Below, piece after piece: positions 12,562 through 16,304 of a stretch of 64,000 nucleotides of DNA. This DNA comes from Clostridiales bacterium. GTDB taxonomy: Bacteria > Bacillota > Clostridia > Christensenellales > Aristaeellaceae. Position 1 is the first letter of the stretch. Every line of letters starts with the position of its first letter. The translations under genes and the position numbers were made by a program. The notes below the pieces were generated by a model. It was not told the DNA's origin. It worked only from the letters and a program-made list of their open reading frames with translations, and searched no databases. The stretch spans positions 62,001 through 126,000 of the forward strand of contig JALFVL010000042.1 in NCBI GenBank assembly GCA_022787165.1. The letters run 5' to 3'.

Positions 12562-12590
12562 TTGATTTTTTCCGGCTTTTCGTTTAAAAT
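12562..12590 (+). promoter_or_regulatory. Promoter of the PqqD/radical SAM cassette
   Basis: TTGATT and TAAAAT separated by exactly 17 bases, about 75 bases upstream of the PqqD-like gene, in an AT-rich tract that contrasts with the GC-rich surroundings. Confidence 0.75.
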
Positions 12591-12667
12591 ATCCGTTGAA
12601 GAGAATTCATAGCAGGTGTATCTTTAAAGATTAGGCCTGTTATGTCGAAAATGGGAGCAGGGCTGAT

Positions 12668-13015
12668 ATGGAGCCGCGCAAGAATTCCGAATCCCCTTCC
12701 GGCATGCCGGAGGATTCCTTCTTCGCCAAAGATACGGCGCGTTACCGCGTCTCCCCGGACTATGTGCTGCGGGAGGTCGCTGGGGAATGCGTGATGATCC
12801 CCATCGGTGAGGGCTGCAAAATCAGCAATGCGCTGATGGCCCCCAACGAAACGGCCGTCTTTCTCTTCAAGGCCTTTGCGCAGCCCGCCCGCAGGGCGGA
12901 GGTTCTGCAAAAGGCCTTGAGCGAATACGACGCCCCGGCAGACGTGCTCTGCCGCTCCATCGATCATTTTATTGCAGAAACCGTAGCATACGGCATTCTG
13001 GAGGAGGTTGAATAG
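12668..13015 (+). CDS. PqqD-like peptide-recognition protein
   Basis: This 115-residue protein matches the PqqD fold in size and pattern: an N-terminal beta region (YVLREVAGECVMIPIG), then NETAVFLFKAFAQPA, and a C-terminal helical part ending with VAYGILEEVE. PqqD-like domains bind leader peptides and present them to radical SAM or other modifying enzymes in RiPP pathways. Here it is first in a cassette with a small Cys-containing protein, a radical SAM/SPASM enzyme and an HPr-kinase-like protein. The next gene starts one base after its stop codon. Assignment rests on pattern and context, since PqqD sequences are divergent. Confidence 0.75.
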   Translation: MEPRKNSESPSGMPEDSFFAKDTARYRVSPDYVLREVAGECVMIPIGEGCKISNALMAPNETAVFLFKAFAQPARRAEVLQKALSEYDAPADVLCRSIDHFIAETVAYGILEEVE

Positions 13016-13016
13016 C

Positions 13017-13418
13017 ATGAACAAGGTTTGGCAGGAGCCGCAGGTGATGGTGCAGCAGTTTGTGGCCAATGAGTATGTCGCGGCGTGCGGAGATCAGTAT
13101 AAGACTTATCTGTTTGAATGCAACGCTCCGGGAGGTTGGCTCACTTACTATAGTCAACATGATAATGCCGTTGATGGCCAGCATGTTGACGATGGTAGTG
13201 ACTATACGTTCTTTAGAACGTATTCTCCTTGCAACGAGAAACACGAAACAGGCGATATCGATGATTTTTACGATGGCTATGTCACCGACCGCAGAGGAAA
13301 TGAGACCCCAGTTATTGTTTGGCTCGAATATGTATTTTTCCGTGGGGAACGCTATTTTAAAAACGCTCATGCCACTACAAAATTAAATATGAATGCATGG
13401 GAAACCGGTAAGTCCTGA
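13017..13418 (+). CDS. Small Cys-containing protein, candidate RiPP-type substrate
   Basis: This 133-residue protein begins MNKVWQEPQVMVQQF and then carries ANEYVAACGD, followed by YLFECNAPGG and TYSPCNEKHE; it ends MNAWETGKS. Such small proteins with a conserved N-terminal segment and a few Cys (here C24, C35 and C71) recur in gut Clostridia, from memory and not checked here. There is no classical signal peptide or membrane segment. GGAGG lies 9 bases before the ATG, inside the end of the PqqD-like gene. The sequence is more AT-rich than its neighbours. Being next to PqqD and a radical SAM enzyme makes it the likely substrate, but no function is known and it may be an ordinary exported or structural protein. 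Confidence 0.65.
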   Translation: MNKVWQEPQVMVQQFVANEYVAACGDQYKTYLFECNAPGGWLTYYSQHDNAVDGQHVDDGSDYTFFRTYSPCNEKHETGDIDDFYDGYVTDRRGNETPVIVWLEYVFFRGERYFKNAHATTKLNMNAWETGKS

Positions 13419-13446
13419 TTCCTCATCTTTCTCAAAAACGCTTTAT

Positions 13447-13476
13447 GGATCGGAGCCTCGCGTTCCGATCCTTTTT
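13447..13476 (+). terminator. Intrinsic terminator or attenuator inside the cassette
   Basis: A perfect 8-bp stem (GGATCGGA/TCCGATCC) with a 9-base loop, followed by TTTTT, lies between the small protein gene and the radical SAM gene. Partial termination here would yield more substrate than enzyme mRNA, a common arrangement in peptide-modification operons. Confidence 0.85.
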
Positions 13477-13501
13477 CTGACCGGAAAGGAGAATCCCGAC
13501 C

Positions 13502-14611
13502 ATGCTGGAGATGGAGGACGCCTCCACGCCGGAGCGCGCGCTCATCGAAATCGCCAAGGCGCGCAGGGCGCCCATCAACGGGAGCCTCGAGCTGCTGCCG
13601 CTGTGCAACATGCGCTGCGACATGTGCTACGTTCGCCTGAGCCGGGCGGAGATGGAGCGCCTTGGCCGCCTGCGCACGGCGGAGGAATGGCTCTCTCTGG
13701 CGGAGCAGATGCGCCGCGCGGGCGTGCTGTTCCTGCTGCTGACCGGCGGCGAGCCGCTGCTCTACCCCGGCTTCAAGACGCTCTTTGCCGCGCTCCGGTC
13801 GATGGGCTTCGTGCTGACGATCAACACCAACGCGACGCTGATTGACGAGGGCTGGGCGGATTTCCTCGCGCAGCACAGGCCCCGGCGCGTTAACGTCACG
13901 CTCTACGGCGCGGATGAGGCGGATTATGCGCGTCTTTGCCATTTTCCGGGCGGCTTTGCCCGCGCCCTGCGGGGCATCCGCCTGCTTCGCGCGCGCGGAA
14001 TCGACGTCAAGCTCAGCTTCAGCGTGACGCGCGCGAACCTGCCCCACATGGAGCGTGTCTTCGCCCTCGGCGGCGAGCTCGACGTCCCCGTACACATCGA
14101 CCCCTACATGATGCCCGCCGTCCGCGAGCGCAGCCTGCCCTTTGACAGCCAGTCCCGCGTCTCGCCGGAGGAGGCGGCCCGCGCCGCGCTGCGCGCGCTG
14201 CGGCTCCAGCTGCCGGAGGATTTCTTCCGCCAATACGTCCGCCAGAGCCTTGAGCGGGTGCGCGATCCCGCCTTCCCCCGGGGCGACGGCCATGTCTCCT
14301 GCCTCGCGGGCAATTGCTCCTTCACGGTCAACTGGCAGGGCGAGATGCGCCCCTGCGTGGTGCTCTCCTCCCCGTCCGTCCCGGTCTTTGACACCGGGTT
14401 TGACGCCGCCTGGCAGACGATCTGCGAGCAGACGCGGGCAATCCGCATCCATCCCCAATGCACGCAATGCAGCCTGCGGCCTCTGTGCAAGATTTGCGCG
14501 GCGGCGGCCCTGCTGGAAACCGGCGCGTTTGACGGCATACCGCCCTACCTCTGCCGCTATGCCGAGGAGACCCTCCGGCTGCTTTTGGAGGAGGAAAAGC
14601 TGCATGGATAA
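13502..14611 (+). CDS. Radical SAM/SPASM-domain enzyme
   Basis: The 369-residue protein has the radical SAM motif CNMRCDMCY at residues 35-43, then LLLTGGEPLLYPGF with the SAM-contacting GGE motif. The C-terminal half has a cysteine set (CLAGNCSF, EMRPCVV, CTQCSLRPLCKICAA, LCRYAEE) typical of a SPASM domain with auxiliary [4Fe-4S] clusters. These enzymes modify peptide side chains by radical chemistry, for example thioether or carbon-carbon links. The ATG at 13502 is preceded by AAAGGAG. It overlaps the kinase-like gene by 8 bases. The likely substrate is the small protein just upstream, with the PqqD-like protein delivering it. Confidence 0.9.
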   Translation: MLEMEDASTPERALIEIAKARRAPINGSLELLPLCNMRCDMCYVRLSRAEMERLGRLRTAEEWLSLAEQMRRAGVLFLLLTGGEPLLYPGFKTLFAALRSMGFVLTINTNATLIDEGWADFLAQHRPRRVNVTLYGADEADYARLCHFPGGFARALRGIRLLRARGIDVKLSFSVTRANLPHMERVFALGGELDVPVHIDPYMMPAVRERSLPFDSQSRVSPEEAARAALRALRLQLPEDFFRQYVRQSLERVRDPAFPRGDGHVSCLAGNCSFTVNWQGEMRPCVVLSSPSVPVFDTGFDAAWQTICEQTRAIRIHPQCTQCSLRPLCKICAAAALLETGAFDGIPPYLCRYAEETLRLLLEEEKLHG

Positions 14612-15515
14612 GTGCTTTCGCATCGGCGATTTCCGCTTTCGCCTGCTCGCCCCGGATTCCCTCCCCTGCCCCGCAGGCTTTCTGCGCTTTGAAACGGCAA
14701 GCGCCGATGTCGAAATGACCTTTCGCGTTTGCCTGAGCGACAGCCTTCCCCCGCCGGAGGGGGAGATCATCGCCAGACGGCCCGACCTCGTCGTCTATGC
14801 CTCGCCGCAGGGGGAGAGCCGCCTCATCGGCCTGCGCGGGCGCGAGGGCTTCTATGCCCGCTACCGGGAGCTGTCGGGCGGGGAGGCGGAGGTGCTCCTC
14901 TCTGCCGCGGCGGCGCAGGAGCTGCGCGTCGACCCGGTGTTTGCCTCCCTCTTCGCGCTGGAACGGCACATGCTGCGCCGGGACAGCCTGATTCTCCATT
15001 GCGCGTACACGGTCTGCCGCGGCGAGGCGATTCTCTTCTCCGGCCCCTCCGGCATCGGCAAGTCCACGCAGGCGGCGCTCTGGGCGCGATACCGGGGCAG
15101 CCGCGTCGTCAACGGCGACCGCGCGCTGCTTCGCCGCGACGCCGGGCGATGGCTGGCCTGCGGCTGGCCCGTCTGCGGCTCCTCGGGCATCTGCGAGGTC
15201 GAGGATACGCCGGTTCGGGCGATCGTCATGCTGCGCCAGGGCAGGGCCAATCGCGTCGAGCGGCTCTCTCCCCTTCAGGCCTTCGCAAGCCTCTACGCGC
15301 AGATCACGATCAACGGCTGGAACCGCGCGTTTGCGCAGCAGGCGATGGCGCTCATCGAGGCGCTCGTCGCGCAGGCGCCCGTGCTGCTGCTGACCTGCGA
15401 CATGACGCAGGACGCCGTCGCCTGTCTGGAAGCCGCCGTGTTTCCCCAAGGCCGCGAGGATGACGCGGCCGCTTCCGGCGGCGTAGCGCCCGACAGTCCC
15501 CCGCGCCGCGCGTGA
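14604..15515 (+). CDS. HPr-kinase/PEPCK-fold-like protein of RiPP type
   Basis: The start at 14604 gives 303 residues. The Walker A motif GPSGIGKST lies at residues 147-155, followed by VVNGDRALLRRD, which resembles the acidic segment after the P-loop in HPr kinase and PEPCK folds. The N-terminal 130 residues lack the HPr-kinase receptor domain, and the kinase part is short. Similar proteins accompany PqqD-like domains in other RiPP clusters, where some phosphorylate the peptide. It overlaps the radical SAM gene by 8 bases with GGAGGAGG just upstream. It may phosphorylate the modified product or act as a nucleotide-dependent maturation factor. Confidence 0.7.
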   Translation: MDKCFRIGDFRFRLLAPDSLPCPAGFLRFETASADVEMTFRVCLSDSLPPPEGEIIARRPDLVVYASPQGESRLIGLRGREGFYARYRELSGGEAEVLLSAAAAQELRVDPVFASLFALERHMLRRDSLILHCAYTVCRGEAILFSGPSGIGKSTQAALWARYRGSRVVNGDRALLRRDAGRWLACGWPVCGSSGICEVEDTPVRAIVMLRQGRANRVERLSPLQAFASLYAQITINGWNRAFAQQAMALIEALVAQAPVLLLTCDMTQDAVACLEAAVFPQGREDDAAASGGVAPDSPPRRA

Positions 15516-15647: not shown

Positions 15648-15734
15648 TGGTGCGGGAAACAGGACTTGAACCTGCATGAAATTGCTTTCACTAGAACCTG
15701 AATCTAGCGCGTCTGCCAATTCCGCCATTCCCGC
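15648..15734 (-). tRNA. tRNA-Leu (CAG)
   Basis: An 87-base class II tRNA starting GCGGGAATGGCGGAATTGG, with a variable arm, anticodon loop TTCAGGT, T arm with GGTTCAAGTCC and an encoded CCA. Confidence 0.96.
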
Positions 15735-15742
15735 AAAAAAGA

Positions 15743-15827
<85 letters not shown>

Positions 15828-15836
15828 ATATAAAAT

Positions 15837-15912
15837 TGGAGCTGGTGAAGGGAATCGAACCCGCAACCTGCTGATTACAAATCAGCTGCTCTGCCAATTG
15901 AGCTACACCAGC
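15837..15912 (-). tRNA. tRNA-Thr (TGT)
   Basis: A 76-base tRNA with acceptor GCTGGTG, anticodon loop TTTGTAA, T arm GGTTCGATTCC and an encoded CCA. Confidence 0.96.
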
Positions 15913-15946
15913 ACGATCTCAATGGTGTGAGCACGAAAGAAAAATA

Positions 15947-16023
15947 TGGCGACGCGGAAGGGGCTCGAACCCTCGACCTCCAGCGTGACAGGCTGGCATT
16001 CTAACCGACTGAACTACCGCGCC
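15947..16023 (-). tRNA. tRNA-Asp (GTC)
   Basis: A 77-base tRNA with acceptor GGCGCGG, anticodon loop CTGTCAC, T arm GGTTCGAGCCC and an encoded CCA. Confidence 0.96.
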
Positions 16024-16029
16024 GTATAA

Positions 16030-16105
16030 TGGTGGGCCTTCAGGGTTTCGAACCCCGGACCGAGCGGTTATGAGCCGCCTGCTCTGACCACTGAGCTAAA
16101 GGCCC
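16030..16105 (-). tRNA. tRNA with CAT anticodon, probably tRNA-Ile2 (lysidine type)
   Basis: A 76-base tRNA, acceptor GGGCCTT paired with AAGGCCC, anticodon loop CTCATAA within GCGG/CCGC, and an encoded CCA. The body (CCTTTAGCTCAG and CGGCTCATAACCG) resembles Bacillus tRNA-Ile2 more than elongator tRNA-Met, so CAU is probably modified to lysidine and reads AUA. Confidence 0.88.
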
Positions 16106-16131
16106 CTGAAGAACCATCCGATTGAAAAAAA

Positions 16132-16206
16132 TGGTGACCCCGAGGGGAATCGAACCCCTGTTATCGCCGTGAAAGGGCGGTGTCTTGACCTCTTGACCAC
16201 GGGGCC
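16132..16206 (-). tRNA. tRNA-Glu (TTC)
   Basis: A 75-base tRNA with acceptor GGCCCCG, anticodon loop CTTTCAC, T arm GGTTCGATTCC and an encoded CCA. Confidence 0.96.
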
Positions 16207-16227
16207 GCAACGTTTGCCGAGAAAAAT

Positions 16228-16304
16228 TGGTCGGAGTGAAGGGATTTGAACCCCCGACCCCATGCTCCCAAAGCACGTGCGCTACCAAGCTGCGCTACAC
16301 TCCG
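16228..16304 (-). tRNA. tRNA-Pro (TGG)
   Basis: A 77-base tRNA with acceptor CGGAGTG, anticodon loop TTTGGGA, T arm GGTTCAAATCC and an encoded CCA. It is first of the seven-tRNA operon. Confidence 0.96.

Follow-up and report, generated by a model that had tools for sequence, protein, structure and literature searches.

A candidate RiPP cassette pairing a radical SAM/SPASM enzyme with an HprK-like kinase in a Clostridiales genome

Gene content of the cassette and its relatives

The window analysed here, a 64,000-nucleotide stretch of contig C11 in the 2.49 Mb draft genome (G000) of a Clostridiales bacterium, contains a cassette of four genes encoding a PqqD-like protein, a small protein, a radical SAM/SPASM enzyme and an HprK-like kinase. 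The original prediction had described this set and likened it to the biosynthesis of a ribosomally synthesized and post-translationally modified peptide (RiPP); the cassette is real, and its placement was correct. The features are shown in Table 1, with positions given for the whole window.

Table 1. Features of the cassette, with large proteins encoded near related cassettes
Feature	Position	Strand	Basis
Sigma-70-like promoter match, TTGATT-17-TAAAAT	12562..12590	+	Consensus scan, 9/12; alone no proof of function
PqqD-like RiPP recognition element (RRE)	12668..13015	+	Pfam PF05402, 34.9 bits against a cut-off of 23.4
Precursor protein, 133 amino acids	13017..13418	+	Translation; leader about residues 1-24; leader profile E 8.6e-14 (in the profile seed); family alignment; AlphaFold2 (AF2) model
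Ser133, C-terminal residue of the precursor	codon 13413-13415	+	Translation
Terminator-like hairpin, then T-run, between precursor and maturase	13447..13471	+	Scan
Radical SAM/SPASM maturase	13502..14611	+	Pfam PF04055, 89.3 bits
HprK/PEPCK-fold kinase	14604..15515	+	Fold search; predicted to phosphorylate Ser133 of the precursor
Proteins of >1000 amino acids with signal-like N-termini near some short-precursor cassettes	L129:9147-13877, L144:4645-7887, L130:9442-14004, L127:5511-9650		

With the small protein alone as query, a search of 100 genomes found nine places in six genomes at E≤0.01. A PqqD gene lies within about 3.5 kb of all nine and a homologous radical SAM gene near eight, so that the small protein does not occur mostly without these two partners, the outcome on which the original prediction had said it could fall. 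The kinase is found in the same stretch at only three of the nine places, but here the objection is answered in trans, all six genomes encoding one, compared to 15 of the other 94 (the genomes are related and not independent).

When 84,980 species genomes were scanned with the radical SAM alignment, at least 239 relatives were confirmed, of which the best 80 are the named loci referred to below. These are mostly in gut and rumen Clostridia with some in Bacteroidota, and the farthest are in Peptococcaceae and one Syntrophobacteraceae metagenome-assembled genome (MAG). PqqD is present in 58 of them, a recognised precursor in 56, a peptidase homologue in 27, and a kinase homologue in 64, a share conditional on the choice of loci by radical SAM similarity. 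A search for the same four-gene order in other Clostridia had originally been proposed; related cassettes are recovered from gut Clostridia, but the exact order PqqD-precursor-radical SAM-kinase is seen in only six of the 80; gene order is fluid and content recurrent. Loci L085, L101, L108 and L148 are apparently the same contigs as L051, L053, L054 and L047, so each precursor entered the counts a single time, repeats being recognised from the final 60 residues.

The source genome has three further kinase-radical SAM loci, on contigs C4, C25 and C7, and the one on C4 has the same gene order as the window cassette. Its precursor paralogue (L041:7572-8002) has an interrupted frame, with similar sequence running on in another frame; the kinase and radical SAM open reading frames (ORFs) beside it remain open. 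In a Lachnospiraceae MAG (L155, 7107-9077) kinase (residues 41-293) and radical SAM enzyme (298-643) are fused in a single 656-residue ORF, and the leader-like ORF upstream ends in Ser, although its profile E-value of 0.012 leaves it outside the set of 81 precursors described below. Although it comes from a single draft genome, this fusion ties the two enzymes to one pathway.

The precursor family and its terminal serine

By its sequence the small protein resembles a precursor, with a conserved [W/Y]xxP leader and a hypervariable core, and the RiPP-like interpretation is to this extent supported, as far as sequence allows. The leader of the window precursor reads WxxP ... EYVAAC, and those of the family W/YxxP...F..NEYVAAC. 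An early regular-expression scan (130 ORFs, 65 Ser-ended) was dropped as loose, many of the ORFs looking spurious, and a leader-only profile was used instead. This profile was built from the first 34 residues of 55 seed precursors with [WY]xxP followed by Cys, leaving the C-terminus unused, and was searched against translations from all start codons of the fetched loci. The seed rule partly builds in the xxP share (78/81) and the Cys at residues 18-36 (81/81); among the 30 precursors outside the seed set, 28 have [WYF]xxP.

The profile identifies 72 non-redundant precursors at E≤1e-6, and 66 of these end in serine. Among controls from the same loci this is true of 11/345 ORFs matching the enzyme profiles and 73/1194 other ORFs of at least 200 amino acids, counts that hold repeats and overlapping frames; with repeats removed they are 11/318 and 69/1124. 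The terminal serine is also evident in precursors that did not contribute to the seed (26/30), and at E≤1e-2, in a set of 81 that leaves out one spurious row (L089:11158-12372), it is found in 72. The information content at the last position of these 81 is 3.52 bits; over the 11 positions before it, the highest value is 1.12 bits. The cores of the 81 fall into 32 clusters without detectable mutual similarity, 23 of them mostly Ser-ended.

Precursors range from 46 to 176 amino acids with a median of 132, and some loci carry more than one. We note that a 17 kb stretch of a Bacteroidaceae MAG (L118) contains five Ser-ended precursors, four of them with near-identical leaders, and three radical SAM genes. 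In the 12 precursors of the window type the invariant residues include Cys24, Tyr31, Phe33, Cys35, His76, Gly87, Trp102, Asn116, His118 and Ser133, and Cys72 is nearly invariant. The AF2 model of the window precursor (mean predicted local distance difference test score, pLDDT, 75) has a low-confidence leader and a beta-rich core, with pLDDT of 87-93 for residues 71-120 and 50-75 for residues 41-70; a structure search with the predicted core gave no good PDB match. A core that folds and has conserved Cys and His residues would be as much in keeping with a small modified protein as with a classical peptide.

Putative modifying enzymes, exporter, peptidase and neighbouring genes

The PqqD-like protein, judging from its family, would be the leader-binding protein. 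The radical SAM enzyme has the sequence marks of a peptide maturase: C35, C39 and C42 of the CxxxCxxC motif and seven cysteines in the SPASM region (C267, C285, C320, C323, C329, C332 and C351) are invariant in 14 aligned sequences, although Pfam SPASM itself scores below its cut-off. Its best matches among solved structures are SkfB, 5v1q and the anaerobic sulfatase-maturating enzyme, with PqqE ranking lower. With conserved cysteines in the precursor, a thioether or other carbon-centred cross-link is the first guess for its chemistry.

The kinase is predicted to have the HprK/PEPCK fold, with PEPCK chains ranking above HprK in the fold search, and H132, G152-K153 of the P-loop and D172 are invariant in 34 kinase sequences. 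In eight genomes with Ser-ended precursors the fetched stretch lacks a kinase; a profile search finds one elsewhere in seven of them, one of the seven (G105) apparently being the already known G011; the same profile matches in 21 of 100 relatives. The kinase tree includes 29 kinases whose fetched stretch has no radical SAM gene, and 16 of these group together (98 in the Shimodaira-Hasegawa-like approximate likelihood ratio test), although many such stretches extend only about 1.5 kb on each side and support for most deep forks is weak. The radical SAM-linked kinases are not one clade; the tree requires 11 changes, compared to a shuffled mean of 25.8.

The original prediction also stated that no protease or exporter follows the cassette. 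An exporter-peptidase pair is encoded elsewhere in the same genome, on contig C30 and unlinked to the cassette, and such pairs adjoin cassettes in relatives. An ABC exporter of about 600 amino acids and a short peptidase-like protein stand beside the cassette in L084, L087, L101 and L102; in L087 Pfam assigns them as ABC_membrane plus ABC_tran and as Peptidase_S24 (25.0 bits against a cut-off of 23.3). In the peptidase sequences there is an (S/A)G(S/G)SM motif and an MHR, which we take to mark the Ser/His type of signal peptidase. The C30 exporter is identified by Pfam, and the C30 peptidase is 76% identical to that of genome G011. At E≤1e-60 such peptidases are found in five of the six cassette genomes (G008 is without one) and in none of the other 94. 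A signal-peptidase-like domain is fused to the N-terminus of the ABC exporter in L125 (4882-7044) and L131 (4784-6979). The genome also encodes an NTP_transf_5 nucleotidyltransferase on contig C6, among genes that by eye are glycosyltransferase-like, and in L084, L087 and L102 exporter, peptidase, nucleotidyltransferase, RRE and kinase all lie in one fetched stretch.

Among 101 flanking proteins, chosen by hand without a fixed rule from 150 of 193 candidates and not tested for enrichment, there were nine AAA_31, six Wzz, five surface Ig-like, four CpsB_CapC, four resolvase and three NTP_transf_5 proteins. The large proteins near some short-precursor cassettes (Table 1) belong to GH2, GH20 or DUF7601, or to no family. 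These neighbours offer hints of a role at the cell surface; in the window's own flanks (9-20 kb) no capsule genes were seen by eye. The hairpin between the precursor and maturase genes is weak evidence alone, since the scan found two terminator-like hairpins against 3.1 expected in shuffles; by a rule of our own, hairpins lie 3' of 19/81 precursor genes, compared to 5/79 PqqD, 9/97 radical SAM, 3/85 kinase and 3/28 peptidase ORFs. Directly downstream of the cassette, at 15648-16304, are seven minus-strand tRNA genes (Leu, Tyr, Thr, Asp, Met, Glu and Pro).

Interpretation and comparison with known systems

The closest known systems include the phosphorylated lasso peptides and the linear polyphosphorylated peptides (LPPs), the latter described by Popov et al. 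in 2026 as made by an RRE, an HprK-like kinase, an archaeal-type signal peptidase, an MsbA-like exporter and a nucleotidyltransferase, often in capsule loci (PMC13381572). We consider it probable, though well short of secure, that the cassette is RiPP-like and makes a radical SAM-modified product that is phosphorylated on its C-terminal serine, using the toolkit of these two groups. The direct support for this comes from gene content, homology, the fold predicted for the kinase, the conserved terminal serine and the exporter-peptidase pair in the genome. In such a pathway the PqqD-like protein would bind the [W/Y]xxP leader and present the precursor to both enzymes; the radical SAM/SPASM enzyme would modify the core, most likely at conserved cysteines such as Cys24, Cys35 and Cys72, through a carbon-centred cross-link; and the kinase would phosphorylate the hydroxyl of Ser133. 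The MsbA-like ABC transporter on C30 would then export the product and the archaeal-type signal peptidase beside it remove the leader, with cleavage expected near VAA/C24, this pair being a finishing unit probably shared by several cassettes of the genome, and the C6 nucleotidyltransferase may decorate the phosphate. The precedents, as given in the lasso-peptide papers, are that the paeninodin kinase, an HprK homologue, phosphorylates a C-terminal Ser and cares little about the remaining sequence (PMC8498205), that several reported lasso-peptide kinases of the HprK type also act on the C-terminal Ser (PMC8498205, PMC10368454), that a nucleotidyltransferase adds hexoses to the C-terminal phosphate of pseudomycoidin (PMC8498205), and that a PqqD-like RRE speeds the lasso kinase BsfK (PMC10368454).

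Several observations weigh against this interpretation. Nine of the 81 precursors are not Ser-ended and all nine have a kinase in their locus, which shows that a neighbouring kinase alone does not imply a terminal serine; one has the interrupted frame (L041), five have a penultimate Ser (L100, L103, L104, L106 and L160), and three have neither (L153, and L157 twice). Conversely, the genome of L099 has a Ser-ended precursor and gave no kinase match in a genome-wide profile search. The kinase keeps one of the two HprK active-site aspartates, the first Asp of ADDR being Gly in its NGDR, and its activity is consequently not certain. A core predicted as a beta-rich domain is unusual for a RiPP substrate, and the C30 peptidase ORF, whose submitted start is over-long, has no Pfam match at E≤0.01 and was placed by identity. 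Two tested relatives of the kinase are described as acting elsewhere in the peptide: BsfK on Ser3, the third core residue (PMC10368454), and LppK on core residue 3, not the C-terminus (PMC13381572).

These two kinases speak for a simpler system of the LPP or phospho-lasso type, whose kinase would target a Ser close to the boundary of leader and core, with an accessory radical SAM enzyme and a different role for the terminal Ser; the cassette and such systems also have in common the kinase, RRE, SpI-type peptidase, exporter and nucleotidyltransferase. We think this unlikely, as no conserved Ser or Thr is found around the border in the 81 precursors (in none of 44 columns does Ser exceed 15%, or Ser and Thr together 21%), the full LPP leader motif YxxPxVLxHQxIxFETxxS (PMC13381572) is absent from the cassette leaders, and 16 of the 29 kinases without a nearby radical SAM gene separate in the tree, within the limits of short stretches and weak deep forks noted above. 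Similarly unlikely is that the terminal Ser serves as a signal for recognition or processing, in export, by the peptidase or in the control of degradation, with the HprK-like protein using ATP for another purpose, such as chaperone activity or a small-molecule substrate. The Gly replacement would fit this, as would the ranking of PEPCK chains, enzymes of another substrate, above HprK; however, characterised homologues in RiPP clusters are reported to phosphorylate peptide serines (PMC8498205, PMC10368454, PMC13381572), and the C-terminal Ser is the determinant described for the paeninodin kinase (PMC8498205).

A further explanation, quite unlikely in our estimation, is that the cassette is a protein-conjugation system, in which the C-terminal phosphoserine of a small, folded, radical SAM-modified protein would serve the nucleotidyltransferase and capsule enzymes as a handle for making or attaching a polysaccharide, so that a protein-glycan conjugate would form at the surface. 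It is suggested by the Wzz/CpsB capsule genes or large surface glycosidases that adjoin some cassettes, by the predicted beta-rich core without a convincing PDB match, and by analogy to pseudomycoidin, whose phosphate can be glycosylated (PMC8498205). A PQQ- or mycofactocin-type pathway, in which the peptide is trimmed to a small redox cofactor, would account for the pairing of PqqD with a radical SAM/SPASM enzyme and for the weak NCBIfam similarity of the latter to PqqE and the mycofactocin maturase; but with precursors that are hypervariable, of such varied length and more than one per locus in several loci, and with the 25 best NCBIfam scores of the enzyme all far under their cut-offs, this is very improbable.

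If the cassette does make a C-terminally phosphorylated product, it would define a class from gut bacteria whose substrate rule is a single residue, the terminal Ser, and whose kinase may tag the ends of many unrelated proteins, and it would extend the LPP and lasso toolkit to proteins of at least 100 residues. It would join radical SAM remodelling to HprK-type phosphorylation, two RiPP chemistries that we found reported only apart. We recognised no RiPP cassette with both a radical SAM enzyme and an HprK-like kinase in the open PMC literature (subscription papers, outside preprints and supplements excluded), and this combination of two known peptide-modifying machineries is apparently undescribed.

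The original view that the cassette matches no class that could be named was a fair one, the nearest, the LPPs, dating from 2026. SynChlorMet cassettes (NCBIfam TIGR04248-TIGR04251) bring together PqqD-like, HprK-like (ScmC) and radical SAM/SPASM genes, a likeness drawn from the family names. Of the NCBIfam models, ScmC matches the kinase best, albeit at 22.8 bits against a cut-off of 125, and the radical SAM enzyme scores 74.7 bits against 400 for ScmE; none of the cassette proteins reaches the cut-offs of ScmC, ScmD, ScmE or ScmF, and neither, among the matches listed, do nine cassette-type proteins of relatives.

Phosphorylated lasso peptides (paeninodin, pseudomycoidin and Bsf) share with the cassette an HprK homologue, a PqqD-like RRE and a nucleotidyltransferase, as described in their papers (PMC8498205, PMC10368454, PMC7533575), and paeninodin also the proposed action on a C-terminal Ser (PMC8498205). 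They differ in that a radical SAM enzyme is present here in place of the macrolactam cyclase. By Pfam, none of the four cassette proteins is a lasso cyclase or a B2 protease; a cyclase was not sought genome-wide, and the one match to the B2 leader protease (PF13471) in the genome, at 20.8 bits, is below the cut-off of 26. The precursors here are also long, and lasso precursors are much shorter.

The resemblance to the LPPs extends from the genes, with a discrete RRE, to the [Y/W]xxP leader, variable precursors of 35-200 amino acids, patchy distribution and capsule-locus neighbours (PMC13381572), and the source genome holds the LPP core-gene set, with RRE and kinase in the cassette and exporter, peptidase and NTP_transf_5 unlinked. 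Two kinase loci, L057 and L058, which have peptidase and PqqD and no radical SAM match, are LPP-cluster-like. The cassette differs in its radical SAM/SPASM enzyme, 'radical SAM' and 'rSAM' having no occurrence in the main text of the LPP paper; in a leader that shares the W/YxxP part alone and continues to EYVAAC with its Cys; in the conserved C-terminal Ser, compared to the described core Ser3 phosphosite; and in its distribution in Clostridia and some Bacteroidota, the LPPs being stated there to be restricted to Bacillota and mapped on Bacilli (PMC13381572). We file the cassette as a variant beside the LPPs, not as a member of them.

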